In this document: positions 3,142 through 37,698 of the stretch, piece after piece | How positions within the stretch are numbered: the first letter of the stretch is position 1 | Layout: each line of letters starts with the position of its first letter | Assembly (NCBI RefSeq): GCF_038396675.1 | Contig: NC_088921.1 | Span: 3,612,001 to 3,676,000, forward strand | Source: Hydra vulgaris | Lineage: Eukaryota > Cnidaria > Hydrozoa > Anthoathecata > Hydridae | Direction of reading: 5' to 3' | DNA length: 64,000 bases | The notes under the pieces: generated by a model | Database searches by the model: none | Told to the model about the DNA's origin: nothing | The model's input: the letters and a program-made list of their open reading frames with translations, nothing else | Position numbers and translations under genes: made by a program

Positions 3142-6036
3142 TTAGACAGCCGTGTCAGTATTAATTTTATTTAAAAGGAGCCAATTGCCTAATTGTGCTT
3201 TAAAACTGTTTACTGATTTTGCATTAACTACATCTTTAGGTAGTTTATTCCATGGTTTTGTTATTCTGTTAGTAAAGAATGAGTGTCTTAAGTTGCACTT
3301 TGTTTTTTCGCGTTCAAACCTGACACCGTTTCCTCTAGATAATTGAAAATCATTAGGCTTGAAACCGTTTAAAAAGTCCACATTTTCAATTTTATTTAAT
3401 AACTTATAAGTCTGGATCAAATCTCCACGAAGTCTGCGTTCACATAATGGGCTGAGGCCAAGAATCTCCAGTCTTTCCTCGTATTTCATTTTTGCCAGAG
3501 TCGGATTGAGTCTTGTAGCCCTGTGTTGAACTTTCTCGAGCAGTTCTATTTCTCCTTTAAGCTGAGGGGACCACACTGGAACCGCGAATTCAATTATTGG
3601 GCGAACAAACGTCACGTATAAGACTTTAAGAGTCTACACATCCAGTTTCACAAATGTGTTTTTAATCATTCCCAGCATTTTATTTGCCTTCGAGCTGCAA
3701 GATATAATTTGCTGTGTCCATTTCATGTTTGCTGAGAATAATACGCCTAGATCTTTTTGAATAGTAGTTTGTCCTAGGACAACATTATCCATAGAATAAT
3801 CGTGTTTTGGATTGTTACTTCCATAATGTATTATTTCGCATTTTTCTTTATTGAATTTCACTAACCATTCTTTAGACCAGTCCCAAGCACTGTTTATATC
3901 TCGTTGAAGACTGTTTATTTTCTCTATTGAGTTCACATCGATCATTATTTTGGTGTCATCTGCATAGAGCTTGGCTACATTTTGTATTCTATCCGGCAGG
4001 TCATTTATGAACAAAACAAACAATATCGGGCCAATTACCGATCCCTGCGGAACTCCGCTGTAGATATTGCGCCAGCTCGAAACAATATCACCGTTGACTA
4101 CGCGTTGCTTTCTATCTTTTAAAAATTCCTCTAACCACTTTAGCAGTTTTCCTGTAATTCCATACGCTTTTAATTTTAAAACGAGTCTTTTGTGCGGCAC
4201 TGTGTCGAAAGCTTTCGCAAAGTCTAAATAAACCACATCTACCGGACGATTCATTGCGATATTTTCTGTTAAATAATCCACAGTTTCCATGAGATTTGTC
4301 GTGCATGATCTAGATTTAACAAATCCATGTTGACACTTCGATAAAAATTTATTGTTCGTAAAATGTGCCAAAAGTGAGTCTTTTATTATGCTCTCCAGAG
4401 TTTTACACGGCACAGAATTCAGTGATACTGGTCGATAATTATTCGCTTCTAGCTTACTGCCTTTGTTCTTAAAGATTGGGGTAACGTTCGCAAATTTCCA
4501 TTGCTTAGGTAGTTCGCTCTTATCAATCGAAGACATAAATATCAATGTGATTGGCATTGCTAGTCCTTCAGCGCAATTTTTTAAAATGATATTACTCAAT
4601 TGATCAACTCCACATGATTTCTCAATGGATAATTTGCCTAATCTTGTTACTACGTCACTGTAATTAATTGCACTCTCGTCAAAATCTAAATATTTAACCC
4701 CACATCTCGATATGAATTCTGGTAATACTTGGTCGCCCTCTTTAGTGAAAGAGTTTTGAAAATTTTCGTTTAAAATGTCAACAATCTCACTAGTCGTGTT
4801 TGTAACATTTCCTTTGACGTTTTTTATCGCTTTAATTGAGCTCTTTACATTTTGTTGATCGTTCACATATTTAAATAGTATCTTCTTGTTTCTAATCGAT
4901 TTGTAGACCAGTTCGCGTTCGTATTTTTTTCTGGGTTTTCTCGTTTCAATTTTAACTGTTTTACACAATGCTTTGTATTCGTTTACTATATTTTTGTTTT
5001 TCCAATTTGTGCAACAGTTTAAATGTCTCATTCGTCTTTTGTTCTTCACAAGTTCTTTTAGTTCATTGTCAATCTAAAAAATTCTTTTACGGGTCCTGTT
5101 TTTCGAGCTGTGACACGGCATATATTTTTGACAAGCTTCGTTAACATAAAAAATGAGCGTGTCGTACATCTCCTGGACATTAATTGCATCAAAAATGTTT
5201 ACCCAGTCTGTATTTGTAAAAAATTTGTTCATTCCTGCGAAGTCAGCTTTTTTTAAAATATATTTCCGATTGCTAGCTACAGTTTTTGTCTCATGGTGAT
5301 TGAGTGCATATTTAAACCAAATTACAAGATGTCCTTTGCTTATATTCCCTAATACCGCATTTGTCTCAACTTGAAATAATCTTTGTTCGTTTACTGTGAA
5401 CAGTAAATCCAATGTATTCTCGTACATTGATTTGTTTAGTTGAAAAGTAGGTATCGCGACGTGCTGAATTAGAAATTCGTCGTTTATTATTTCCGAGAAA
5501 TGATGTACTATCGAGTGTTCACTGGAATTTATTGCATGAACTGCTCCATCTGACCATTCAATTTTCGGAAAATTAATGTCACCCATTATTAGAAGATCTT
5601 TAAAACCCCGTTTGTCCACATATTCTCTTGCAGTTCTGAAAACATTTCTGAACAGTTCCATATCTACCACATCGTTTGGTCGGTATATGCATCCTATCAA
5701 ATATTTGTCGTTCCCGAAAACTAGTACAGTCCAGATTTGTTCTAAGTCAGTCGTCAATAGCCATTTTTCATTTACTTCATAAGACGTTATTTCGCTATTC
5801 ACGGAAATACAAACTCCTCCGCCCACGCGTCCATCTTTTCTGTCGCTGCGATATAAGCAAAAATTTTCCACACACGTAATTGAAGTTTCACTAAACCATG
5901 TTTCCGTTACTCCGATTATGTTTGGTTCATTCAGGTGACACAATACTTTAAATTCCTCAAACTTGTTGTTTAGTGAAGTGGCGTTCAAATATATACAGGA
6001 TAAATACGATCAATTTTCGCTTTTTTTCGCTTTCAT
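3142..6036 (-). pseudogene. LINE 1 ORF2: endonuclease and reverse transcriptase
   Basis: The ORF2 protein nicks DNA and copies the element RNA at the nick. The frame opens at the ATG at 6034-6036 and runs about 965 codons to 3142 with three in-frame stops: TGA at 6010-6012, TAG at 5074-5076 and TAG at 3634-3636. There are no frameshifts. The N-terminal APE-type endonuclease shows LNATSLNNKF, ITETWF-like GVTETWF, IYRP and GDINFPKIEW. Its SDH signature reads SKGH near 5335, so a catalytic Asp is missing. The reverse transcriptase has NNYRPVSLNS, YLDFAKAFDTVPH, SGVPQGSVIGPILF and an intact YADD. The C-terminal thumb and connection part (FVRPIIEFAVPVW) follows the last stop. The pattern of KAFDTVPH plus SGVPQGSVIGP fits the CR1 group. 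Confidence 0.9.
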
Positions 6037-8548: not shown

Positions 8549-11189
8549 GTTGGCATATGTGAGATAACTATGTATAAAGGAAAAGTAAAGAAGTTTTAGG
8601 CTTTTTTGCGATAAAAATGGTCTAGCTTTAAAAAATATACCAATACTTTTAGATATTTTAGTGTTGATGGCATTTATATAAGCTGTCCATAAAACATTTT
8701 CGTCAATAATCACACCAAGAAATTTAATTGTTTGGGTTCTTTCAATTTTTTTGTAGTTAATACTTAGTGTCGGTAGAATTGATGGTAGTTTGTTCTTTTG
8801 TTTCTTTGAGTGAAATAAAATATATTTAGTTTTTTGCGCGTTTAATGATAATTTGTTAGCACTGAACCATGTTTTAAGATTTTAAAGTTCAAAGTTGACT
8901 TTTTCAAAGAGGTCATTGATAGAGGTAGATGAATAGAACAGATTGGTATTATCTGCAAACATTATACAATCGAGATTTTTAGAGGCTTTAGGAAGATCGT
9001 TAATGTAGATAAGGAACAATAAGGTGCAAGAATAGATCCCTGGGGGACACCGCATTTGATTTTTAATAACTCCGTATTAGTGATACCGTTTATAATAACA
9101 CATTGCTGCCTGTTATTTAAATAATTAGTGAACCATTTATTAGTTTGATTTTTTATACCGTATTTTCTCATTTTTTCGAGCAGAATTTTATGGTTGACAG
9201 TATCAAAAGCTTTTGTAAGATCGATAAAAACTCCCAATACAAATTTTCCTTTATCAAATGACGAGCTAATGTTGTCCATTAGGTCTAAGGTTGCATGTTC
9301 CGTAGAATGATTAGTTTGAAAGCCGTATTGACATTCACTTAGAATTTTATTGTCTGCTAAATATTTATAAAGTCGGTTGTACATTATTCTTTCCAGGAGT
9401 TTGGAAAACACTGGAAGAATTGAGATAGGTCTATAATTAGTTAGCAATGCCGTGTCTCCAGTTTTAAATCTTAAAACAGGTAAAATCTTCGCAATTTTTA
9501 ATTTGTTCGGAACAACTCCAGTTCTAATTGATGACTTGAAAACATTAAATAAAGGATCTGCTACAATGGATAAAATATCATATACTACATTGCTGGAAAT
9601 GTCATCGATGCCCGGAGCTTTGTTCTTTCTGATTGATTTTTTTGCTTCTTCGAATTCCTCCAATTCTAGGTCACTCTCAGAAAATGAACTAGTATGGTCA
9701 GTAAAATAGTTATTAAATGAATTGTTCGAGTTGTTTATCTTGGATGCCAGGTTAGGACCGATATTTACAAAAAACTTATTAAATTTCTCGGAGATAGTTT
9801 CTTTATCTGTATACTCAATTCCATTTTCCGCAATTCTGGAGGGTAACATTTCGGATTTAGTTTTGGTTTTTCCGATAATATCGTTCATAATTTCCCATGT
9901 TTTTTTAATGCTACCATTGTGTTTTTGTAATTGTTTAGAATAATAGATTTTTTTTGATTTTTTTTTAATTTTTTCAAAAAGGTTTTTGTATTGTTTATAG
10001 ACAGTAAGATTTTTTTCGTTTCTATTTTTTAAATATTTAATGTATAGTTTTTGTTTTTTCTTTGACGATTTCTTTATTCCGTTAGTTATCCATGGACATT
10101 TCAAATATTTAACTTTTATTTCTTTTTCAATAATTGGAAAGTGTTTATTGTAGTGCTCAAGAAAAATATCAATAAATATATTATAAGCAGTATTTGTAAG
10201 TCCTCGGTTGCATTGTTGATAAACATTTGACCAATTTGTTTTTGATAAAGTTTCTTTAAATTTGTGAATCTAAGATTTGTTAATTTTTCTTTTATATGTT
10301 TTAATTTTTGAATTATTTAATGAGGAAGAGTTTTGTGTAAGTGAGAAGAATATTGGAAAGTGGTCTGATATATCAATTTTAAATATTCCTGTTTTTAAAG
10401 ATATGTCTAAAAATGAGTTGGTCAGTATATTATCTATGGCTGTAATTGAGGTTGAAGTGACTCTGGTGGGTTTATTAATTAATGAGAATATACCGAGCTG
10501 AAACAAATTATCAAAGAAAATTTTAATGTTATTGTTTTCATTGTATTTTAAACAATCTATGTTCATGTCTCCTATGCAAAATATTTTTTTTTTTTCATTG
10601 TTGAGTTTTATAAAGATTTGGTTCAGATAGTTAGAAAATTTGATAATATTGCCATCAGGTGGCCTGTAACAAGTAGTTACTAGAATGTTTTTTTTATTTT
10701 TATTGATTATTCTATGGTGAAGGCTTCATTGTCGGCATCGGAGAACGAGAGGTCGCTTCTAATTTTTTTTTCAAGATCATTCCGAATATAAACTAAAATT
10801 CCTCCTCCTCTTTTGGGTATTTTCCTTTCAAAAGAAATCATGTGTTAGTTAGTAATTTGAAGGTTTGAATTCGCTTGAGAAAATTCGTCAGTACACCACG
10901 TTTCTGTAATACAAATCATGCTGAATGAATAATTACATTCTAAAAGAAAACTTTTCAATTTGTCGATATTTGAGTTAATACTTCTTATGTTTATGTGAAA
11001 AACTGTAAAATCTTCATTACCTTGTTTGAATTGGGATTTAAAAGTATCAATTTCAAAATATTCTGTATTACAACATTTTTTGTTAAATATTTTTTTATCT
11101 GCGTGATAAAAATCGTTAGGTAAAATATTATTCGCGGTTTTAAAATAATCGGAGTAATGGGTTTCAAACTCTATTGTTTCGATTGCCAT
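8549..11189 (-). pseudogene. LINE 2 ORF2: endonuclease and reverse transcriptase
   Basis: The frame starts at the ATG at 11187-11189. The endonuclease begins FTVFHINIRSINSNIDKLKS and MICITETWC, loses frame between 10566 and 10845, and ends with DISDHFPIFF at about 10360. The reverse transcriptase (8962-10104) shows NYRPISILPVFSKLLERI, GVFIDLTKAFDTVNHK and CGVPQGSILAP. A frameshift follows directly, and the next frame carries the catalytic box as FADN instead of FADD (Asn codon at 8948-8950). The C-terminal part FLGVIIDENVLW to LTYANIAWG then runs straight into MITE sequence, so roughly the last hundred residues are missing. Confidence 0.85.
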
Positions 11190-11887: not shown

Positions 11888-12569
11888 GGTAAATTATTGT
11901 CAGATCAGGTTATCCTGCTACTGGTAACATGTAACCCAGTACAATCTGCTTCATGTCCTGCTGCCTTGTAGGATACGCCTTTTTTAGGCAAAGGCTAGGA
12001 GATGCCAACTCCGATTTAAAACACCCCCTGCCTTGGGGCTCTTGGTTGAGTAAAGGCTAGAGATGGTGTCTCGATAAAAATACTCATCTTGGGCAGATGT
12101 TAAATGCACCCAGCTACTGTCTTGTAGAAGGCCTCCTAGGCAAAGACTTAAGGGGTAAACAGATTCTATCTGTTGACCAGCCTCGCACCCCTTCTTCATC
12201 TATTAGGCTGGCGCAGATGTATTTTTAATACATTGTTTCCAGTTTAGGATGTTGAATGCTGGATCTTCTTGACTCAATGCATGGGTTTGCTTGTGTCACT
12301 GTTTTTATGACTAGGCAACTCATTCTATTATCTCCTTATGAGGGTACAGCTCTAAAACTCAGTTTTATGGTTCTGAGGCCGGCTGGTAGTCAGGTTTCCC
12401 GAACTCTGTGGTAGCTCTCAGAGAGGCTGATTCCATCAACAGCTGAAAAATATCAAAGTATTAACAGTGCCATGTTGCGCATGGATGGTGTCCCTGTTTG
12501 TACTTTTGGTGTGCATTGCGGAGGCCACATTTGGAGCCCTTTGTTACGGCTTAGGGTTTATTAGTAGTA
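11888..12569 (+). promoter_or_regulatory. LINE 3 5' untranslated region, probable internal promoter
   Basis: These are the roughly 680 bases between the upstream target duplication and the ORF, richer in G+C than the window. I see no ORF1. It contains repeated short phrases such as GGCAAAG/AGGCTAG near 11985, 12050 and 12140. LINEs of this kind are usually transcribed from a promoter within the 5' UTR; that role is inferred, not visible. Confidence 0.5.
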
Positions 12570-15557
12570 ATGAGGCAATTGCTTGGGCTATTAAACGGTG
12601 TTCTGAGTACTATCTATGCTTTGAGTCAAGTTCTTCAATCTAATTTAAAAATGAATAAAGTACCAAAAACTATAAAACACAAAAAACCATCATCATCACC
12701 AAGTTCTCTAAACCTATCATTCACTAATATTCGTGGTCTTCGAAGTAACTTTTCTTCTGTTGAGTCTTATCTCTTGCAAAGTTCACCAGACCTACTTGCT
12801 CTTTGTGAGACTAATTTGAGTTCGGCTGTCTCATCTTGTGATCTTAGTGTTGATGGTTATCTTCCTCTGATTCGTAAAGACTCCAATAGCCACATGCTTG
12901 GCCTGGGCATTTACATTCGTAAGAATTCACCTGTTTGTCGTGAAACTAGGTTTGAATCCACAGACTATTCTTTCATGTGCTTTCGTTTAGCACCACTTCA
13001 CGCTATTGCCTTTCTCTTTGTTCTATATCGATCTCCTTCATCTCAAGACTGTACACTTTTTGATGTTATTTCTGATCATATTGACCAAGCCCTCTCTCTT
13101 TATCCATCAGCTAATATAGTTGTTGTCGGTGACTTTAATGCTCACCACTCTGAATGGCTTGGCTCTAGTGTCAGTGATTCTGCAGGCATTAAAGCCCACA
13201 ACTTTTGCCTTTCTCAATCCCTAACTCAAATAGTCAACTTTCCAACTCGCTTTCCTGACAACCCTAATCATTTACCTTCTCTACTCGACTTATGTCTTGT
13301 TTCTGATCCTAGTCAGTGCTCAGTTTCTCCACATTCACCCTTAGGTGCTTCTGATCACAGTTTGATCTCTTTAAAACGAATATCTTATTCTTCTTCATCA
13401 CCTGAATACCCCTACTATCGAACCTCTTACAACTACAGTAAAGCCGACTGGGATTCTTTCCGTGATTTTCTTCGTGATGGCCCTTGGGTAGAAATCTTTC
13501 AACTTCCTGTCGACAAATGTGCTTCTTATATAACTTCGTGGATTCAGGCTGGCATGGAATCTTTTATTCCCTCTCGACGATTCCAGGTCAAGCCTCACTC
13601 TCCTCCATGGTTTTCCTCACACTGTGCTGCTGCGATTGCCAATCGAAACCGTTACTTCCATATTTATCAGCAAAACAATTCTCCAGAAAACAGACGTCTT
13701 TTCATTACTGCTAGAAACAACTGTAAAAAGGTTTTGTCTAACGCCAAAACCCGCTATTCTCAGGTCATGAAATCTCGTATCTCATCTCAAAAATTAGGCT
13801 CTCGTGACTTCTGGAGAATCTTTAATAATATCAATAATAAGGGCAAATCTATAATTCCACCTCTCTTGTATGGTTCAGACTTTGTCACCTCACCTAAAGA
13901 CAAAGCCGAACTGTTTGCTAAAAACTTTTCATCAATATCATCTCTTGATTCCACTAATTGCGTTCTACCTGATATTGCCAACAAACAGGTTGATTCATTG
14001 CTTGACATTCATATCACTTCAGCATCTGTATCTAAAGTGATTTCCTGTCTAGACTCTTCTACAGCTTGTGGCCCAGACAACATACCTGTTATTGTCTTGC
14101 AGAAGTGTTCTCCAGAGCTGTCGTCTATACTCTCAAAACTATTCAACAAGTGCTTATCAGAGTCTTGTTTTCCAGCCTGCTGGAAAGCCGCATCTGTTAT
14201 CCCTATCTTCAAAAATTCTGGGGAGCGATCTGATTCGTCTAACTACCGTCCCATAAGTCTTCTTCCTATCATAAGCAAGGTTTTTGAATCTTTAATTAAC
14301 AAACACTTAATTTCTCATCTTGAATCTAATAACTTACTTTCTGACCATCAATATGGATTTCGATCTTCTCGTTCTACAGCTGATTTGCTAACAGTAATAA
14401 CTGACAGGTTTTATCGTGCATTAGATGAAGGTGGAGAGGTTAAGGCCATCGCTCTTGACATTTCAAAAGCGTTTGATAAAGTTTGGCATGCTGGTCTTCT
14501 CCATAAGCTTTCTTCTTATGGTGTATCCGGCAACATCTTTAAGATCATTGAATCCTTCCTTTCCAATCGTAGCATAAAAGTTGTCCTCGATGGACAACAC
14601 TCTTCTTCTTATTCTGTAACTTCAGGGGTTCCTCAAGGTTCTATCCTTGGCCCTATACTCTTTTTAATTTACATTAACGATCTTCCAGATATTCTCACAT
14701 CTAAGGTGGCATTGTTTGCTGATGATACTACCATTTATTCTTGTCGTGATAAGAAACCAACACCCTCTGATTGCCTGGAGGGGGCATTTGAGCTTGAAAA
14801 GGATCTCACTTCTGCTACAGCATGGGGCTCACAGTGGCTGGTGAACTTTAATTCAGATAAAACTCAATTTTTTTCAGCCAATCGTTATCGCAATAATTTA
14901 GATCTTCCTATATTTATGAACGGTGATGTACTCGATGAGTCACCGACTCTTCATCTTCTAGGATTAACTCTTACTTCCAATCTTTCTTGGAAACCATATA
15001 TCAAATCGGTTGCAAAATTAGCATCTGCTAAGGTTGCATCTCTTTATCGAGCTCGTCACTTTCTTACTCTGGATTCTATTCTCTACCTCTATAAATCTCA
15101 AATCCGGCCTTGTATGGAATACTGTTGCCATATCTGGGGCGGATCTTCTAATGATGCCCTTTCTCTTTTAGACAAGGTGCAAAAACGCATTGTAAACATA
15201 GTTGGACCTGCTCTTGCAGCCAACCTACAACCATTATCACATCGTCGTAATGTTGCTTCTCTTTCTCTTTTCTACAAATACTATAATGGGCACTGCTCGA
15301 AAGAGCTAGCGTCTCTTGTGCCATCTACTAAAATTCATTCTCGTGTTACTCGTCATTCAATTAAGTGTCATCCTTTTTCTGTGACTGTTCCTAAGTGCTC
15401 CAAAAACGCTTATTCGTCTAGTTTTTTTCCTCGAACATCAGCTCTTTGGAATTCGCTTCCTTCATCTTGCTTTCCGGATTCATATAATTTGCAGTCTTTT
15501 AAATCGTCCGTCAATCGTTATCTTGCTCTACAATCTTCATCTTTTCTCTTACAGTAA
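12570..15557 (+). CDS. LINE 3 endonuclease-reverse transcriptase, intact
   Basis: This is a 995-codon open frame with no stop or frameshift. The first ATG (12570) is used here; a second at codon 28 would also give a complete protein. The APE-type endonuclease spans about residues 48-265, with FTNIRGLRS (Asn53), LALCETNL (Glu80), YRSPSSQD, VVGDFNAHHSEW near 188 and GASDHSLIS near 260. A linker of about 200 residues leads to the reverse transcriptase: NYRPISLLPIISKVFESL, YGFRSSRST, ALDISKAFDKVWHAGLL near 630, SGVPQGSILGPILFLIYI and an intact FADD near 717. The thumb region has RPCMEYCCHIWGG, and the C-terminus has FFPRTSALWNSLPSSCFP. There is no RNase H and no ORF1. It fits the Jockey/CR1 superfamily and all key catalytic residues are present, so mobility is possible. 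Confidence 0.95.
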   Translation: MRQLLGLLNGVLSTIYALSQVLQSNLKMNKVPKTIKHKKPSSSPSSLNLSFTNIRGLRSNFSSVESYLLQSSPDLLALCETNLSSAVSSCDLSVDGYLPLIRKDSNSHMLGLGIYIRKNSPVCRETRFESTDYSFMCFRLAPLHAIAFLFVLYRSPSSQDCTLFDVISDHIDQALSLYPSANIVVVGDFNAHHSEWLGSSVSDSAGIKAHNFCLSQSLTQIVNFPTRFPDNPNHLPSLLDLCLVSDPSQCSVSPHSPLGASDHSLISLKRISYSSSSPEYPYYRTSYNYSKADWDSFRDFLRDGPWVEIFQLPVDKCASYITSWIQAGMESFIPSRRFQVKPHSPPWFSSHCAAAIANRNRYFHIYQQNNSPENRRLFITARNNCKKVLSNAKTRYSQVMKSRISSQKLGSRDFWRIFNNINNKGKSIIPPLLYGSDFVTSPKDKAELFAKNFSSISSLDSTNCVLPDIANKQVDSLLDIHITSASVSKVISCLDSSTACGPDNIPVIVLQKCSPELSSILSKLFNKCLSESCFPACWKAASVIPIFKNSGERSDSSNYRPISLLPIISKVFESLINKHLISHLESNNLLSDHQYGFRSSRSTADLLTVITDRFYRALDEGGEVKAIALDISKAFDKVWHAGLLHKLSSYGVSGNIFKIIESFLSNRSIKVVLDGQHSSSYSVTSGVPQGSILGPILFLIYINDLPDILTSKVALFADDTTIYSCRDKKPTPSDCLEGAFELEKDLTSATAWGSQWLVNFNSDKTQFFSANRYRNNLDLPIFMNGDVLDESPTLHLLGLTLTSNLSWKPYIKSVAKLASAKVASLYRARHFLTLDSILYLYKSQIRPCMEYCCHIWGGSSNDALSLLDKVQKRIVNIVGPALAANLQPLSHRRNVASLSLFYKYYNGHCSKELASLVPSTKIHSRVTRHSIKCHPFSVTVPKCSKNAYSSSFFPRTSALWNSLPSSCFPDSYNLQSFKSSVNRYLALQSSSFLLQ

Positions 15558-15834: not shown

Positions 15835-15882
15835 TATGTGGGATTTACCTTAAACTATTATGACGAAATTTTATAAAATTAA

Positions 15883-16533
15883 GAGCCGTTTTTTCTAAGA
15901 ATCAGGCAAATTCCTGAAACTGTGGAAGTGACCTCTTCCAAATTGCTTGAATTTTTTATATATTGATCAGAATATAGAGAAAACCTGTTGGGGAAAAAAA
16001 AAATTTTCAAAAATGTTTCGTTCACTTGGAATCTGGGCTTAAATTTTTGAGATTTTTTTTTAAAATTTTTAGAAATTTAGTTTTTGCCACCTTTAAACCC
16101 ATTTTTTTGGCAAGGCAAAAAGTTGCACATAGCTTTTGTAGTTAATATCAGACGTAACCCAAAAGCTCTCTCCAACAAATATAAAAAAGTTGCGTGACAC
16201 TGTGCGGTTGGCTAATTATCATAGTTCAAAAGTACAAAATCAATCAGTTTTGTCAACTTTTATTCGGAGTTAATTCTAGCGGCGAAGTGTTGCACACAAT
16301 TTTTCTTTTAGGATTTGAAATTATCAAAGGTATTGAGTCTAAAAATGCAAATAAAGTTATGTGATACCTAAGGCCTATTAATATATTAAGGCTTGAAATT
16401 GGAAAAAAATGTTTTAGTATTCTTACAAAATGAACCACTACGGCAGAGGCGCTTAGTTTTGTAAAAATGTAAACATATCCAACTGTCAATACAAAAAGGT
16501 CCTAACATAATAATAAAAAAAATTCGTGTGATT
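15883..16533. repeat. Left inverted repeat of the TTAA transposon
   Basis: Pairs with 21292-21931. The two arms carry the same spurious open frame of about 78 residues in mirror positions (16253-16489 minus and 21335-21571 plus), an immediate sign of high identity. The next 180 bases to 16714 show nothing else. Confidence 0.93.
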
Positions 16534-16714
16534 TTGTCACACGCATGATATAACATGAATTAAAAACTGAACAAAAATCTAACATCAAGATAACTATATT
16601 GCTAATTAAATAAAACATAAATCAAACATTTAAATGTTTTTCCATTTAAAAATTAGTTTTTCATTTATTAATAGAGTCATTTACACACATTATCCACCAC
16701 ATCACACATAATTT

Positions 16715-19700
16715 CTACTCTGCTGCAGTAAGTTTCTCTAAGAATAATGATATGACTGTATTATAGTCTTCTTCATATAATGAATAATCGCCACAACCAC
16801 TGATTAGAAAAGGAGCATTTACTAAACAGATAATTTTATCAGTTTGGTTATTTATCTCCTCGGTAGTAACTGGCCAGCGAAAAGTATTCTTCTCTTGCCC
16901 GTTAATCATACAATTAACTCTGATCCCAGTTATAGATACCTAAAAGTATTAGCGCAACATTTAAAATAATATAATAAAGAGTTTATGATTTGTTTAATTT
17001 TGCTTACATTCAATAAAACTTGTAAAGTCTTATATAATGTCATTCTGAAATTATTTTTACATTTTATTTATATTCCTTTTATTTTAGAGCACTGTTTTGT
17101 AAAACAAAATAAAAACTTAAAACTAATATATACTTTGAATAATATTACCTCCACAATATATCCAATATTCCATTGTTTTTCATATGCAACAGCAACCCAA
17201 TCATTCACTTTCCATACAAGACAAATTTCTTTTGCAAGATTGGCGATGTCTTCCTCATATTTATTATCATCTTCATTGTCTCCTGCCAGATTAAAGTCAT
17301 CATTTTCGCCATAAACTTCTTTGTTATCGTTAACCTGACTATTTTCATTATTTTCTGTTGTCGGTTCTACCAGCTTACCTTTTCTTTTCAGGTTACTAAA
17401 TCTATAACAATATCAATTGTACATATTTTTAAACATATGTAAACAAACACACAAAATTATAACTTTCACCTAAATTTTAATTTCATATTTGTAAAAGAAC
17501 TATTTAACAGTCAGAAACATAATCTAATTTGCAAAAGTTTTGATAGCAACAATGCCTACCTTGAAAATAAAGATCTTATCTGTTGGCTAGTTACATATTG
17601 ATCAGGCGGAAGTTCTCTCCTCAGCTGCATGTGAACCTGCTCAGGGCTCATTTTATTACCTGATTCTTCTCCACGAATAAAGTATTCATACAACAGTTCT
17701 TTCTGCTGATTTGAAAATCTAAAAGAACTTTGAACTGGTAATGCCCAACCTTGCAATAGAAAAATGTTCATGCAATGTGGTTTGTCTTTTACGGAAGCAC
17801 TGTTAGAGGATGAAGAAATTGGCATATTTAGTTGTGAAGTAATTTTCATCTTATGAACAAACGAGTTGCGAACTTTATCCAATGATGTTAATGATTTCGG
17901 AACTGTATGAAGACCGGATAGCCTGTGTTCTTCTAACTCAGCATCGCTTTCAAATGATAAAGTACAATTCATTTCAGTGCAAAATCTTAATGAATATAAT
18001 TGCCTGTCACTTCTTTTCTGTTTTTCCTTAAGTGACTTGTTACGCTTAATTGAATTATCTGTTTTGCTATATGGCAACAACAACTTAATCGAGGGTTGAA
18101 TTTTAAGATTTCCTTACTCTTGTTCAATTCCCTCACCGATATTGAAATAACGCCACATCTTCATACTTTTCTCACCAAACTCAAATGAGTGATAGTTGCT
18201 AATGTTCTTAATCTTTGGTCCAGTAACTACAGTTTTATCATTGCTAATTTGAGCAACTGCTACTTTTGCATCTTTAGCGCCAAAATTATAATGCATAGCC
18301 TTGTGTATATCTTCAGCAGTCAAAAGATTATTACCAGAGTCAACGTAACTCCTTAAAATTGTCTTTACAACTGCACTCTCCCTGTCACATTGATCTTTTC
18401 CACAACAGGGTTCATTATAATCATATCTCAGCAACTTTATATCTCTCTCTTTGCATACATTGTAGATTGCTTCAGCTGAAAGATTTCCCTGATAGCAGCC
18501 GGCATTATCAGATTTGGTAAACATTTTCTTGATATGCGGTTGATCAATTCTGAATTGGTCTAAAACTGCAGTGGCTAACGAAACAACATCACCTATTCCC
18601 TGATCACACCTATACATTGAAGTAAAGTAAACACGTTTGAATAACTTTCCTGCTATTTTTATGAAGAATATATCCACATGTAAACTCATTCCTTTCTTGC
18701 CAAAATACTCTCTTTGGCCCTCTCTGTATCGAACCGGAAGAATTTTTTGACAAAAATCTTTAAGCCAGAAAGCAGTTTCATCGTTTAATTGCTTAAAAGC
18801 TTCGATTTTTGCCTTTTTCTGTTGAGAATCTCTCATCAGGTGTTTTATGTAGTTGAATACATCCTTTACAGCAATTTCCAAATCATAAATAGAATCAGCA
18901 TCGTCAGAATTTTGAATTGTTAGTTCTTTGATCATCTCGATAGCTTTGCACAAATCATAGCAATCGGCACATACCACTTCTGATATCTCTGTGTTAAATT
19001 GAAGATTTTTTTCAGATGGATCTGATAAGGCATGTTTTGAGCTATGAGAAGAAATGTTTGAGTCATTGACACTACAATTGGTTTGATAACTTGTTTTCAA
19101 ATACCTTTTTCCTTTTTCAAGGGCAGCTTCGAGAGATTTAGAACTAAATCTTTGTGCCAATTTTTGTAATGTTTGAAAACCATTCATGCCTGAAGCAGTA
19201 ACATCATCTAATCCAGCTAAGCTTTTTCGACTTGAAGGTTTTATTGCATGCAATACTTTCCACAAACTTGAATCAGATAACGGTATATAATTGTTTTCAC
19301 AACAACTTTTTCGATAGAACATGATAGCGTGGCTATATTTTGTCGTCAGTATTGCATGCACTATCTTTTGTTCTTCACCGCTGTCGTATTTTAATTTGGT
19401 TATTCCATAAGCAACATCATGCAAAATACCGCTTGTAAATATAAAGTCTAAGAAATGTTCACACTTTGTTTGATCAAGACTAGATCGGACGAATACTTTC
19501 TTCTCTGGAAATGCCAACCCTTTATGAGATGCATGCCATTTTCGTGCTGTTTCTATACGATGTTTGGTACACTCAAATATGTTCATTATAAACTTTTTGG
19601 TATACTTGGTATGGTCTAATAATGAGAGGATAACTAACTTTCCCATGGAATCACTTTGCTTATATACTTTCTGAGCACGAATAATTTCAATTGGGAGAGG

Positions 19701-20813
19701 GCTATTTATTTCATCAACATTTTTACTGTTAAGAAAATCTATAAGTATTTCCTCTTGTCCAGGAGCAACAGCTTCCGCAAATTTTTTCTTTAATAAGTTT
19801 TCTAGGCGAACATACTTGCGTTTCAACTTATCTTTAGTAGTATCTTCCAGATATTTGAACTTCCTTTTTAATCTAAATTTTATTGGACTTGCATTAAGAA
19901 CCTAAGTTACACTCTCACGGCTTCTTAGAGATTCGTCCAAAATCTCCTGTGAAACATTAATTTCACCGGGATCAAATTCTTCATCTGGAGTAGCAGGTGT
20001 CATATATGTTTGTTCTTGTTGTGTTTGTGTTTCTGTACATAAATTGGTGTTTTCGTTGACTCTAGATAAAGCAGTTTCTTGCTTTAAATGGGTAAAACAC
20101 AGCATTGCACCAACTGAAAATACTTCATTGTATCGCTTTGACATTGACATGACGACATGTATTGGTGACGCCCTTAAAGCGGGAGATTTTTTTCCTTTAA
20201 TATTTAGATGGTGAGGATGAAAGCATGTTTTTGGAGGACTCCATGCAATACCAAACGTGTACCGGTGAAAAGCACATATTTGTTCATCCTTTTCAAGATT
20301 TCTTTTAAGTCTATTTGCAATAAGTCCATTTTCTTCCCAAATTTTATTATCGTTTAATCGCATGACCTAAAAACAATTTTTTAAACAATTATTAAGTGTG
20401 TCATTTAAAGCATTGTTTATAATTTGACTCTTCACGAAAAATGTTTACAAGTTTGAAATACATTGTTGTTATTATTAAAATACAATATTGCAAGAGTGTG
20501 ATTAATTTAGTGATTATTTATTAAAAGAGTGAGGAATTAATTAAAAGAGCTATTTTTTTTTGTTTAAAGAACTTTGTCTCAAAATCTTATTGCAGAGAAG
20601 TTATAAAGTATGTAATTATAAAAATTATATTACAGTCTGCGTAAATTTAAAATACATAATTACCTTTAAGTTGATGAGGTGTTTCTTAACATCAACATCT
20701 CCCAGCTGATGAATGTAGAACATTTTGTTTATAATTTTATATTTTTTGAATGATCCACAATTTCCTTTTGAAAAACAACAACAGTTGTCAGAAAAATATT
20801 TGTTTTGTTTCAT
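16715..20813 (-). pseudogene. C2H2 transposase-like protein, about 1,140 aa, 4 exons
   Basis: Predicted exons are 20664-20813, 17560-20366, 17149-17395 and 16715-16939, all with GT-AG borders and matching phases. Exon 2 holds two in-frame stops, TAG at 19902-19904 and TAA at 18114-18116, but no frameshift. Read-through order is as follows. A Cys/His-rich module comes first (ICAFHRYTFGIAW, PPKTCFHPHH). A large core carries possible catalytic acids in LHVDIFFIK (about residue 615), TKSDNAGCY (about 670) and GKDQCDRESA (about 711). A C2H2 finger follows (FCTEMNCTLSF..HRLSGLH). A helix-rich part has GWALP and TSQQIRSLFSR. The end is a small SH3/Tudor-like barrel (WVAVAYEKQWNIGYI, then FRWP). I recall close relatives as uncharacterised C2H2 proteins in corals and Hydra. 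The transposase role is inferred from its place between the inverted ends. Confidence 0.75.
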
Positions 20814-21291
20814 ACTCAACTAAAAACAAGATCTATTTATGCAGTACCTATTTCTCAATAGCAATGATAAAATATCTACTCTATTTATGCAAATTTTAAA
20901 GATTGTTAAAATAAAGTTAAGACATTTTTATGGTAAAGTAAACAACCGCCCACTAACTTGTTTCTCCACAATCGTGATATCAGCGATTCTTCTTCCATTC
21001 GATCACCACAAGTTATTTGGTTATGACGTAAATTTAAATAATTCACTTCTGATCATGTATTATTTTTTATTATTATTTATTTCAATTGTTATGATTTCTA
21101 TATCATAGTCAGAAAAGCTTAAATTTTTTCTTAACATTACGTGCAATGTTTTGTGTAATGCTAAATGCTAATTTTGGATGATAGAAATTTTATTGTGAGC
21201 GAAAACCTCATCTGTGTGTCCAAAAAAATATCTCTTCGTACTTAATCATTTTTAAAAATTTGTACCTTTATTTTTAACTTAATATCTAAAG
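20814..21291. other. 5' region of the TTAA transposon gene
   Basis: AT-rich sequence between the predicted start codon and the right inverted repeat, with no coding signal beyond a chance frame. It presumably holds the promoter of the minus-strand gene; no motif is recognised. Confidence 0.35.
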
Positions 21292-21931
21292 ATCACACGA
21301 ATTTTTTTTATTATTATGTTAGGACCTTTTTGTATTGACAGTTGGATATGTTTACATTTTTACAAAACTAAGCGCCTCTGCCGTAATGGTTCATTTTGTA
21401 AGAATACTAAAACATTTTTTTCCAATTTCAAGCCTTAATATATTAATAGGCCTTAGGTATCACATAACTTTATTTGCATTTTTAGACTCAATACCTTTGA
21501 TAATTTCAAATCCTAAAAGAAAAATTGTGTGCAACACTTCGCCGCTAGAATTAACTCCGATTAAAAATTGACAAAACTGATTGATTTTGTACTTTTGAAC
21601 TATGATAATTAGCCAACCGCACAGTGTCACGCAACTTTTTTATATTTGTTGGAGAGAGCTTTTGGGTTACGTCTGATATTAACTACAAAAGCTATGTGCA
21701 ACTTTTTGCCTTGCCAAAAAAATGGGTTCAAAGGTGGCAAAAACTAAATTTCTAAAAATTTTAAAAAAAATCTCAAAAATTTAAGCCCAGATTCCAAGTG
21801 AACGAAACATTTTTGAAAATTTTTTTTTTCCCCAACAGGTTTTTTCTATATTCTGATCAATATATAAAAAGTTCAAGCAATTTGGAAGAGGTCACTTCCA
21901 TTGACTGCCTGATTCTTACAAAAAATGACTC
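21292..21931. repeat. Right inverted repeat of the TTAA transposon
   Basis: Mirror of 15883-16533. The terminal 60 bases carry a short indel difference close to the end (around 21900), where the left arm has about ten extra bases. Confidence 0.93.
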
Positions 21932-22161
21932 TTAAAATGCGTGTTGCAAAATGATTTTATTTTAAAATAAATGATATTAATCAATACATCCAAAATGAAT
22001 ATTAAAAATATTATTTTTTCTTTTGCGATTTACACGTCGTTTTTTATCGATTGAATTAATTAAATCGCTTCGGCTTGCATAATACCAAGGTTTTTAGTAT
22101 CTTCTAACTTTCTTCAAACATTTTCTAAAAAAAAAAAAAATTTTAATACAAATATATATAA

Positions 22162-22666: not shown

Positions 22667-25367
22667 CACGGGTTTCTATAATAACAGGCCTTGCCATCGC
22701 GCAAAATGCCGTAAAAACTGAAGGCCGATTAAACTTTTACTTTTACTTATATTGATTAGGTAGGGTGTAATGGTTTCTAATAATAATCTCTAGTAAAGAC
22801 GGAAATATAAAAAGAAACCAAAAAATTGTTAAAAGATAATCATATTTTTCGTATTTCAAATTTCATTAAGAATATTTATGTAATATTAAATAGTATCATT
22901 AACAAGCAGAACCATAACAAAGTATATATATATATATATATATATTAGAAAGATAACTGTATTTTTAATTTTTTTTTTGCTAAAAATGATAACAATAAAA
23001 ATCACCAACAATAAAAAACACCAACAAAAGTTGATTCAAGTAAAAAAAAGTTTTATCAATATATGTGAGTAATTCTTTAGCAGAATATTAGAATATACTC
23101 TGCATTGTTTTTTTGTGATTTTAAATTTATATTTAGCAACAATAAACTGAAACTGAGTAACACAAATTGTTCTGCATAAAGGGTCAGTAGCACCTTGAAA
23201 AAAAAAAAGCAAAATATTGACCATTAGAAAAGAGTATCAGAAGGAATTTCAAGTCCGTCTCTGTTTAGGCTATACAGATAACTTCCATATTTATAATAAC
23301 AATTGGTAGAATCATCATAAATTTTTTTTTCGCTTTTTTGCACATAGCCAGCTATGTAAACTATAGCCACTAATGTAGATTTATTAACTGAGCTTTCAAG
23401 ATCATGTATATTATCCAGAAGTTCTTTTTCATCAGTAGAAATATCTCTAAAACATATGTCACAAGTATGACCATCGATACCATTAACAGGAATGTCAAGT
23501 TGTAATATCAATTTAGTATGTTGAATATCAATTTAGTATGTTGAATCTGGATGCGTTCTTAATGCAGCTACTGTTTCTTCACAAAAAACAGACAAACAAA
23601 ACTTTACAGATTGTCTCTCTATTGGTTTTGGATAAACTGATTTAGCTGTAAGTTTAGAGAGTTTAAAAAGACTATTACACTCAGTTTTATATAAAGTTTC
23701 TAAATCACTCCACTTAGCCAAAGCCAGTCTTTTATTGTTCAAAAATTGAAGTTCGCCAGTCTTTTTTGTCAACCAATTGTTTTGTATAGATTTTAAGAGA
23801 TGCACATAATCATACAATAAATATATACCTGATGTTGTTAACCATGGTTTACTATCAAGTGTTTTAAACATTCCAAAAAATCTTTGATTTACAGGGTTAC
23901 CATCAGTAATTATTAACAGTGTCTTACTATTTTCAATATTATTTATCGTATCAACAATTTGTTGACATTGAGCAAACTGAAATTCAGAGGAAAGATTTGC
24001 AACAGGTTGAGCTCTACATATAAATTCTGGACCTCCAAAAAGACATTTAATCATAAATGATAAAATTCTTTTAGCTAACTTTTCAGGGTAGTTTACTGCT
24101 CGACCAAACTGTTTGGTAAAGTGATGAAGCTTGGACATAGACCTCATCAATTAGTAGTATGGAAGTTCTTTTCAATGGATTTAAATTCATAAAAATACTA
24201 TTTATGAAACTTAGGTCCTCCATTGAGCTTATTTTTGAAGTCAATCGTGTTAAAGTCCTTATACTTGGCAACTTGTAGTCAATACACAAACAATCATATA
24301 AACTTCGTCGCATAGCAAAATACTCATATGCTCTACATATAATATCTGAAGTATATAAAACTTCACCAACACTAACTTTTCTCATAGCATTAAGGTGTTC
24401 GAATAGAATATTTGACTGAAGTGAACTTTCTTTATTTTTTAAAAATCTAACTGCTTCAAATAAAGCTGATTTTGTTTTTATTAACTTTAATTTGTTTACA
24501 GCTAAAGATGAAATATTACAAGTTGTGCCATTATGGTTAGCTACAAATGAATAATCATTGAAAATTACTAAAATAAATAATGGAACACCAAGTTTGTACA
24601 TTTTTGATTGTATGTGTAAACTTTTTTTATTAAGCTGGAAAACAATAACATTGTTATTATCACTTAACAAAGATTGAATATTGTCAAATATAAGTTTATC
24701 CTCTTTTAGAAAATCAATTAACTCATCTTGTAAAATTCTTCGAAAACCGCTTGAAGTTACAGTTTTTCTAACTTTACTTGCTGGTGTGGCTAAACAACTA
24801 GGCAGAATATTTTTAATAAAAGATGGTGGGTTTAAAGGTCGTTGCTTCCCATATTTGCTTTCAAAAGGTGCTTCATTTGGCCAATGCAGTTGACATACTG
24901 CTGTATTGTCCGTAACAATAAAACCAGTTCTTGGGATAGCTTCACTACATCTTTTTCTCACTAGATTTTTCGGGAATTTATAAATTGATACTTTTGTTGT
25001 GGTTGAGTATTGATAATTTTGTTGTAGTTGTAATTGATATTGTAGTTGTAGTTGTATAAATTTTATAAGAGATACACAGCATTTTAAAGCATTTTTAAGG
25101 CATTTTAATTATTAAAAAAACTTATCGTTACTTTGACAATATTATTACCTTACAATGTTAACGCCTTGAACCTAACAACGTAATCGTCTTGAAGTTGCGC
25201 TATCTACTTTATAAACCAATCAAACTTTAAAGATTTATGAAAAAAGCGCAAATACAAACTTTTGTCTAATGTTAAAAGATGAAAATGTAAACACAGTATT
25301 AGGAATTGGCCTTCAGTTTAACAACTTTGTTGCGCGATGTCAAGGCCTGTTATTATAGAAAGCCGCG
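22667..25367. mobile_element. P-element/THAP9-like DNA transposon
   Basis: A 2.7-kb element flanked by GTCACACA at 22659-22666 and 25368-25375, the 8-bp duplication expected of P elements. The ends are inverted repeats of about 70 bp that start CACGGGTTTC on the left and CGCGGCTTTC on the right, and share CTATAATAACAGGCCTTG and CTGAAGGCC. It contains one decayed transposase gene on the minus strand. A short (TA)n run lies at 22923-22946. Confidence 0.88.
23036..25000 (-). pseudogene. P-element/THAP9-like transposase
   Basis: The N-terminal THAP zinc finger is partly visible: IYKFPKNLVRKRC, in which the conserved Trp seems to be Cys, then VCQLHWP and PLNPPSF. The Cys pair expected further upstream was not resolved. 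The catalytic part follows with LPSIRTLTRL and LLIDEVYV (first Asp), a frameshift near 24110, GRAVNYPEKLAKRIL, LLIITDGNPVNQRFF (second Asp), and YDYVHLLKSIQNNWLT. A 20-bp exact tandem duplication at 23504-23543 coincides with the next break. IAGYVQKSEKKI and LNRDGLEIPSD come next. After a short intron with acceptor TTTTTTTCAAG the last block reads CRTICVTQFQFIVAKYKF. The order and motifs are those of P/THAP9 transposases, which use an RNase H-like fold with a GTP-binding insertion. Confidence 0.82.
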
Positions 25368-34957: not shown

Positions 34958-37698
34958 CACTGTGGACCAGAGTGACCGCCAGGTTGAGTTGTTCCCCAGG
35001 TCTAATTTTTTTTTTGCAATAGCTAGATATACATTAGTAGACACCATTTATAACATTTAGAACTTCTGGGGTGTTGGAATTTTCAAAAAAAAATGAGACA
35101 AAAAAATCAAAAAATAGCTATACTTATCACTGTGGACCTGAGTGACCACCAGATTAAAATGTTCCCTAGGTCTGATTTTTTTTTTCAATAGTTGGGTATA
35201 CACTATTTCTAACATTTTGGGAAGACACTATTTATAACATTTTGGGAAGACACTATTTATAACATTTAAAACTTCTAGGGTGTTAAAAAAAATTGATAAA
35301 AAAAAATTAAAAAATAGGTGTAACTTATCCTATACAAATAAAAGCACAAAGTAAAAAAGCTTTATGTTAACTAGTTATAATATAAGTCTAAATCTATAAA
35401 TAATATACTTTACAATATATACTTGAAATTATAAACATTAAGTTAAATTATATAATTATTCAGTTTATTTAATGTTTTTTGATGCAAACTCGACAACACT
35501 GGATTTTAGTCGTTTTGCATAATCTATATGGTTAACTCTTCGTTTGTATCTATTCCATGTTTTTTTGAATTCATGATGAATAGCTTCTCCTGTTTGCTCA
35601 CAGTAAACTCCTAGGCCGCAGTCAGTAGAATGAAGAAAAGGAAGTATATGACATACTGCTATGTGAACTTTCCATGTAACACTGAGCTTGATACCCTCAA
35701 ATGTGGCATGCACGTATTCAATCAAATCTGCATAGGACTTTTTAAACTCCAGAACAGCAGTGCTGATGTTATCCCCTGCTACCATACCAAATGCTTCTGC
35801 TTGAAGGCATTTAAACTTTCTAACACAGTTTACTATTGGTAGTAAGTCATATTTTCCATTGTTTATAATATCTCTTTCAAGTATATCAACCAACTTCAGG
35901 AACTTGCTTGCATTGTTTCCGTCAAGCCCTATGCCTTGGTATCCTCGAAACATGATGTAGTTTGATTGTAACCACTTCTCAAACAAAGGCCATACACTAA
36001 CTAGAAGTACTGCAAGTTTATTTACTATTCCCATTAGAACATGGAGCTCAGGAACAGGAACCAACTCTTCGAGAAGAGTTTCAGGATCTTCCTCTTTGTA
36101 CAAAAGTCTTGGATTTGTAACATTTTTAAAGTGTGACATTTTTGACTTCTTCTTTCCGTCAAGGGTAAAGTTGTTATAATGATCATCCAATGACCTAAGT
36201 GTTCGTTTAATTCCAGGCTCAAGAGTGCAGGATCCCTCACAATATAAACAACTGTATTTCCCAGCATGACTACTAATTCCAAACACTGAATTTGCACATT
36301 TTAGATCAAATGCAACGTGAACCTTTACATCGTTTAAATTCAGGGGCTCAATAAGCTTGCACTAAATATTTTTGTTTGAAAACAAATGAACAAAATTTTT
36401 AAATAACTAAATATTTTATTAAGTACAATAAATTTTCTTATGTGAAGCATTATATATATGAAGCATTATATATATGAAAAAATAAAACAACAATAATAAT
36501 AAAATTCTAACCTACAAAGCCAAAGCATGTTGAACATAATCTGGAAGACTTTGCATGTTCAGAATCATTAGAAGCACTGATTTCATCAACAATGTCTTTG
36601 ATATTTGATGATCTTCTAAGATGCAATCTATCAATCTAAAATAATGGAAAAAATATTGATCAGTAAGTGATATTATTTTAGCATACTAAATGGTATTTTA
36701 CTAAACATTATGTAAGTTTAACTATATATACTATATAATTAAATTTTAAGCTTACACTGTAAACAGTAAATAAATAGTTAATAAATAAATAGTAATTAGT
36801 TGTTTATCTTATACAACCTTATATACATGTTTTGTATAACTAATATTTATATACTACAATGTAGTATATATGTAGTATGTATGTAGTATGTATGTAGTCT
36901 ACATACATACATATTATACTCAAATACTTCCATGCATGTCATACTTAAACTAAGTATATGTATATACATATACTTATCGTGCTGTATATATAATATATAA
37001 AGTTATATACATTTTAAGTCTACGCATACAATAGAAAAACTGAAAGTTTTTTTAATAACACATGTATTATTTTTAAATACATGTATATGTATTAATAACA
37101 TGTACTAAGTAAATGTTGTAATAACATGTATTAAAAAAAAAATCTGTTCTATATTTTTAGTTAAGAAACTGTGTGATTGTAAATATAGCAAAGTATTAAC
37201 TAGAAATTAATAATAATTATTATACATAAAAAAACAGATTAACATGAATTTTACCTTGGATATCTTCACTATCCAGTTCCCTAGGTACTCCACCTTGTTC
37301 TTGTCGAGATCATAGAGGTTTCTGTGGCAATTGTTACAAATAACCTTGGGATAGTTGGTTACATCTAAACTATACTGACTCCAGACGAAAGTTTTTATCT
37401 TTGTTTCAATTGCTGGAGTGATCTTTTGAATTTTAGATGCACACGTTTTATGTAAACAGTCCGCCATTGTATATACAATTTAATAATTTCGCGGACTTTC
37501 AACCGAGTTTTCACCTAATTTATTAAGATTTTTATGGCTAAAAATAAATATTTTTGAGCAAATTTTTGTTGACTTTGTCCAATCACTCAGAAGTTTTTAA
37601 TGTCATAAATGGTGTCTACTAATGTATACCCAACTATTGAAAAAGAAAAATCAGACCTGGGGAACAACTTAACCTGGCGGTCACTCTGGTCCACAGTG
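34958..37698. mobile_element. CACTG-ended (CMC/Chapaev-like) transposon in Harbinger
   Basis: A 2,741-bp element with inverted ends starting CACTGTGGACCAGAGTGACC and about 120 bp of good similarity between arms, including CCAGGT and GTAGACACCATTTAT. It is flanked by GTGG at 34954-34957 and 37699-37702. CACT-type termini with a 4-bp duplication fit Chapaev-type elements of the CMC group; Transib elements have 5 bp. A partial third copy of the end sequence (CACTGTGGACCTGAGTGACC at about 35131) lies just inside the left arm. It carries one gene on the minus strand. Confidence 0.88.
35465..37467 (-). CDS. CMC/Chapaev-like transposase, 3 exons, uninterrupted
   Basis: Exons 37255-37467, 36516-36635 and 35465-36361 join in phase through GT-AG introns to give about 409 residues with no stop. 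The N-terminus is a Cys-rich module (MADCLHKTCASKI, then VICNNCHRNLYDL, and CSTCFGF in exon 2). Exon 3 opens VHVAFDLKCANSVFGISS (candidate catalytic Asp) followed by a CLYCEGSC zinc pair. VPELHVLMGIVNKL and FRGYQGIGLDGNNASKFL come next, then a C-terminal CGLGVYCEQTGEAIHHEF with the candidate catalytic Glu. I recall this set from Chapaev-like and RAG1-related repeats in invertebrates. The protein is short for the group, so an exon in the 36636-37254 intron may be missed. Exon 2's donor could also be four bases downstream, but only the GTAGGT choice keeps phase. Confidence 0.75.

Follow-up and report, generated by a model that had tools for sequence, protein, structure and literature searches.

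Transposable elements of the Sola superfamily encode DDD transposases and generate 4-bp target-site duplications, the Sola3 group being targeted to TTAA, and piggyBac elements carry termini of the CCC type. Sola1-3 are distinct subgroups within one superfamily (PMC4455052), and Kojima and Bao (2022) describe Kolobok elements by a TTAA duplication, 5'-RR...YY-3' ends and a C/DxxH signature between the second D and the last catalytic residue (PMC9587614). Here, we describe an element from Hydra vulgaris located in a stretch of 64,000 nucleotides (assembly GCF_038396675.1, contig NC_088921.1, positions 3,612,001 to 3,676,000; the window), which corresponds to G000:C2:3612001-3676000 in the genome searched (911.5 Mb, 15 contigs). 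The element belongs to a young family of cut-and-paste DNA transposons with about 230 copies in this genome, and the Sola3 group of the Sola superfamily would be its best fit, an assignment that we consider probable.

The element spans 6,049 bp of the window, from 15883 to 21931 (GAGCC...GACTC), between two TTAA duplications, and its limits are the following:

15879..15882, no strand: left TTAA target-site duplication (sequence; alignment of 20 copies).
15883..16535, plus strand: left terminal inverted repeat with the tip GAGCCGTTTTTTCTAAGAATCAGGC (end alignment; tip found genome-wide).
21289..21931, minus strand: right terminal inverted repeat with the tip, as reverse complement, GAGTCATTTTTTGTAAGAATCAGGC (end alignment; tip found genome-wide).
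21932..21935, no strand: right TTAA target-site duplication (end alignment; copies compared).

Of the 657 columns over which the inverted arms (about 650 bp each) align, 636 are identical, 11 mismatched and 10 gapped, and the identity of 636 in 647 aligned bases is far above chance. These results bear out the exact boundaries, the TTAA on both sides and the mirrored ends claimed in an earlier examination of the letters without database searches (the sequence-only reading). The outermost tips are not quite alike, being GAGCCGTTTTTTC on the left and GAGTCATTTTTTG on the right, and this difference is kept in the 20 printed copies, save for one base changed in L018 and the loss of the right end in L016.

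Other copies were sought with the left end as query, considering the best 40 scored places of 607 first-look candidates, and 20 of these were fetched with their flanks. Nineteen of them match the element from end to end, L012 being rearranged, and no copy of the kind that would speak against a defined transposon, lacking these ends, was encountered. Together with the window copy, the 19 full-length copies form the comparison set (n=20), where TTAA is present on both sides in 18 and TTAT on both in L017; that is, an identical 4-bp duplication is observed in 19 of 20. The flanks of these copies show no cross-matches among themselves or to the window. Throughout the genome, the tip pattern, which includes TTAA, has 464 matches with up to two mismatches versus none for the reversed control pattern, and a 24-base core site has 233 matches versus none for its control. 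Taken together, both counts correspond to about 230 copies, and a core-site count near half of the tip count speaks against many miniature derivatives. Among the 100 tip places listed of the 464, all without mismatch, 34 facing pairs are found, 28 of them spanning 5,960-6,089 bp; for 32 places no partner is listed, and these partners may be among the remaining tips.

Also, a query made of the joined flanks of L010 produced 18 matches, two being its own flanks and ten crossing the junction unbroken, and in two aligned relatives of this insertion site the junction holds a single TTAA, as paralogous empty sites. The divergence of the 20 copies from their majority sequence is 0.12-1.51%, with a mean of 0.49%, and the singleton changes of exon 2 are distributed evenly by codon position (94, 92 and 86), with few shared changes (17). 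This low divergence, with even singletons and few shared changes, suggests a star-like recent burst followed by neutral decay.

The element carries one gene on the minus strand, with four exons, GT-AG borders and 1,144 codons once joined, the splice sites being predicted from the DNA and not from RNA:

20664..20813, minus strand: predicted exon 1, 50 amino acids, Cys-rich, donor AAAG/GTAATT (splice sites by sequence).
17560..20366, minus strand: predicted exon 2, with the Cys/His module, DDD core, C2H2 finger and SLFSR segment, and two in-frame stops (sequence).
17149..17401, minus strand: predicted exon 3, acidic linker and first half of an SH3/Tudor-like barrel (sequence).
16715..16939, minus strand: predicted exon 4, second half of the barrel and C terminus (resembles L040 and L042 of family B and the C terminus of L043, all described below).
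20208..20276, minus strand: N-terminal Cys/His module, CAFHRY...FHPHH (motif by eye; no Pfam match).
18384..18758, minus strand: predicted catalytic core, D537 (WLKDF), D620 (SDNAGCY) and D661 (GKDQCDRES) (relatives).
17907..17981, minus strand: C2H2 pattern, CTEMNC...H...H (pattern search; no Pfam match).
19902..19904, minus strand: in-frame stop of the window copy, at a site open in 18 of 20 aligned copies (stop in two, the window included).
18114..18116, minus strand: in-frame stop of the window copy, at a site open in 19 of 20 aligned copies (stop in the window alone).

The order of modules is therefore a Cys-rich exon 1, the Cys/His module, a helical-looking middle, the core, the C2H2 pattern, the SLFSR segment and the barrel encoded by exons 3-4. 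The core follows the order WLKDF...LHVDIFF...SDNAGCY...GKDQCDRES, with the acids spaced as D-82-D-40-D. The protein motifs quoted in the sequence-only reading are present, and its view of a clearly bounded TTAA transposon that carries a single multidomain gene is supported. Its single gene of about 1,140 residues agrees with the four-exon model and is not intact here: judging from its reading frame, the window copy is inactivated by the two stops. The 936-codon frame is open in 2 of the 20 aligned copies, and a protein search found it stop-free in 25 of the 74 best-scored places of 1,582 first-look candidates, which in a family of this youth makes activity directly testable.

The window protein, searched as six pieces, and two relatives matched no Pfam model above the cut-off, a sequence search of the PDB with two pieces of the window protein gave no credible relative, and no usable match to viral contigs was obtained with parts of this protein. 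Sub-threshold Pfam matches (MAP70 for the window protein; 6PGD and SO_alpha_A3) were taken as chance. The aspartate of LHVD (D565) was the initial choice as first acid; the profile alignment and conservation favor D537, D565 being less likely.

Diverged relatives were sought with a YRCDQG codon pattern avoiding the codon of the own family, which gave 16 places versus two for the control. Nine of the 16 were fetched, and eight encode relatives, L036 being the one that does not. Family B (L031-L035, L037 and L039) is 42-51% identical in merged rows, and family C (L038) is 45% identical in its merged row, with 36-43% in its longer segments; many copies of both families are frameshifted or internally deleted. 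WLKD is kept in seven of the eight relative rows, L039 being different, which makes the first acid Asp in 7/8, and the Asp of LHVD is kept in five of eight. Three rows reach SDN and GKDQCD: L034 and L035 keep both, and L038 keeps GKDQCD, with SDN in another frame; E663 is also kept in these three. Regarding the ends, L042 carries the tips TTAAGAGAGACTTTCTGTAAGAATCAG and TTAAGAGAAACTTTTTGTAAGAACCAG at its two ends, L040 (family B) has TTAAGAAAAACTTTCTGTAAAAATCAG at one end, L041 (family C) has TTAAAAGCCATTGACTGTAAGAATCAG at one end, and L033, a shortened copy of family B, has inverted ends of about 700 bp with the tip TTAAGAGTGACTTTTTGTAAGAATCAG. A loose tip search allowing up to five errors, which also matched away from ends, found no tip on the left side of L040 and none on the right side of L041. 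Tips alone were used in these comparisons because whole-end local alignments were spuriously long. Families B and C share the core motifs, in the rows that reach them, and recognizable tips, and protein and tip therefore have a common inheritance. Two other patterns added no relatives: DNAGCY with other Ala codons gave four places, one base off the own-family sequence and read as its copies, and SDNxGCY with other Gly codons gave two places (control, two), both fetched and neither a convincing relative.

A more distant link is found with the HGK..CDG transposons of the same genome, which we presume to be Sola-like and whose HGKxxCDG motif served as a lead. Searched as DNA, this motif has 1,054 genome matches versus one for the control, and seven of the eight places fetched belong to one family and encode a transposase marked by SDG...HGKSPCDGIGGTVKR; L051 does not fit. 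No Pfam model above the cut-off was found for the HGK proteins, and sub-threshold matches to FEZ, HNH and others were taken as chance. In hhalign, the HGK profile is colinear with the TTAA-family core at a score of 34.0 (E 0.00088, identity of about 16%), compared with a maximum of 26.8 in 59 column shuffles and with 16.2 for the reversed profile; taken alone, this link between sequence profiles is modest. The alignment sets WLKD opposite the acid of GDF.ENY in the HGK proteins, whose acid spacings are 82/40 in L043, 81/40 in L045 and 83/40 in L046, as compared with 82/40 in the TTAA family. Moreover, the C-terminal barrel is 35% identical to that of L043 over 71 amino acids (E 1.6e-9, the two sequences being searched against each other with no correction for composition). 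The elements L043-L056 are about 4.7-5.2 kb, with tips GGGTAAAAATATATG. Of five stretches fetched, two have long inverted ends (656 and 774 bp), and both of two further copies with the two ends fetched carry a 4-bp duplication (GTAA and TAGA). In addition, the HGK copies L056 and L063, located on different contigs (C1 and C12), share the same left flank, and L056 lacks a matching duplication, by recombination, duplication or an assembly effect.

The element is thus an autonomous-type cut-and-paste DNA transposon. This reading is based on the ends, the TTAA duplications, the paralogous empty sites, the copy number, the youth and the one spliced-looking gene, as well as on conserved acids at a transposase-like spacing and on tips common with diverged relatives that carry the same protein. 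The encoded protein would be the transposase. Judging by position and conservation, its zinc modules may recognize the TAAGAATCAG tip as well as a subterminal motif, AGTGACCTCTTC; the RNase-H-like core (D537, D620 and D661) would cut both ends and attach them to the TTAA target at positions four bases apart on the two strands, and the C-terminal barrel, common with other transposases of the genome, may help to target or assemble the complex.

These data provide a full anatomy, comprising ends, target, gene model, copy number and age, for a large type of animal transposase without a Pfam model above the cut-off. Also, by the acid spacing and the C-terminal barrel, they tie elements that target TTAA to the very abundant HGK..CDG elements within one genome.

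The window contains further features of mobile elements. An open long interspersed nuclear element frame of 1,000 codons with endonuclease and reverse transcriptase domains (12555-15557, plus strand) ends about 320 bp to the left of the element and is followed by a run of A, and other reverse transcriptase frames lie at 3634-5073 and 8962-10269 (both minus strand). The region 34958-37698, with 121-nt inverted repeats (88% complementary) around a 298-codon frame (35465-36361, minus strand) without Pfam match, is probably another transposon of the inverted-repeat type. Compared by eye, its EEDPETLLEEL...LHVLMG stretch is similar to the coding repeat hosting the L010 insertion. Two overlapping frames at 23533-25108 (minus strand), with weak matches to THAP (E 0.057) and to the P-element-type TNP-like_GBD (E 0.0023), both below the cut-off, are perhaps a broken P-like transposase.

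For the origin of the TTAA family, the sequence-only reading had noted that the duplication points to piggyBac or Kolobok, with no resemblance of the protein to piggyBac and no confident match to Kolobok, and had taken this element as the best candidate in the window for an undescribed transposon group. Sola was left out of account there, and the last proposal is not supported: the 4-bp TTAA duplication, the predicted DDD-type core and the spacing and barrel common with HGK..CDG make Sola3 more likely. A group outside Sola, Kolobok and piggyBac would be recognized by the GAGnnA...TAAGAATCAGRC tip, the long inverted ends, the GKDQCDRES core and the C-terminal barrel, and the coherence of the three families is in line with it, as are the absence of Pfam models and of credible PDB relatives in the searches described above. 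However, the equal spacing, the modest profile link that beats its controls and the clear barrel link to the 4-bp-duplicating HGK..CDG elements argue against such isolation, and we regard this alternative as rather doubtful. A separate, undescribed DDD group specific for TTAA and sister to HGK..CDG, characterized by its zinc modules and by the SH3/Tudor-like barrel at its C terminus, would be similarly unlikely; in that case, TTAA targeting would have arisen once more, apart from piggyBac and Kolobok, in elements whose inverted ends are very long.

Several points weigh against Sola3. The element was assigned by the general description of the superfamily and of its TTAA group given above, and no definition of Sola3 by TTAA was found in the literature searched. 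The element ends GAGCC and GAGTC would fit a presumed Sola3 terminus, GAGNS, a string that was not found together with TTAA in the same literature. The HGK link has an hhalign probability of 23% when the core is taken and of 12% (E 0.0024) with the full 936-residue frame, L046 has Asn at the second acid, L056 shows no duplication although both ends are at hand, and the second and third acids are readable in three of eight relatives, that of L038 being off-frame at the second. The change from D565 to D537 was made after the profile alignment, which makes the spacing of 82 partly a product of it; the spacing of 40 stands apart from that alignment. Finally, the single-sequence AlphaFold model was too poor for a fold search (mean predicted local distance difference test score of 35.7), and for this reason the RNase-H-like fold is proposed from motif order and spacing.

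Compared with known systems, the element resembles Kolobok in its TTAA duplication and RR...YY ends (here GA...TC), and differs in that no His lies between D620 and D661, leaving no C/DxxH before the third acid (the motif occurs at five other places in the 936 residues), in its short D-40-D spacing and in that no accessory protein was recognized. Neither THAP nor any other Pfam domain matches the window protein above the cut-off, and no paper with Kolobok, TTAA and Hydra together was found in the literature searched. Judged by this signature, a Kolobok lineage is improbable, which agrees with the lack of a confident Kolobok match in the earlier reading. With piggyBac the element shares the TTAA duplication, whereas its termini, GAG..., are unlike the CCC-type tips and no piggyBac or other transposase model appears among Pfam matches up to E 1, so that the earlier rejection of piggyBac stands and such a relationship is hardly credible. 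The HGK..CDG elements share an acid spacing of about D-82-D-40-D, a GKxxCD third acid, the C-terminal barrel, long inverted ends and a 4-bp duplication, and differ in their smaller size, their tips, their SDG instead of SDN second-acid motif and their GTAA/TAGA instead of TTAA targets. Kinship of this kind unites Sola1-3. Then, the likeness to Sola3 would consist of the 4-bp TTAA duplication, the predicted DDD-type core and the kinship to another group of this genome that also duplicates 4 bp.
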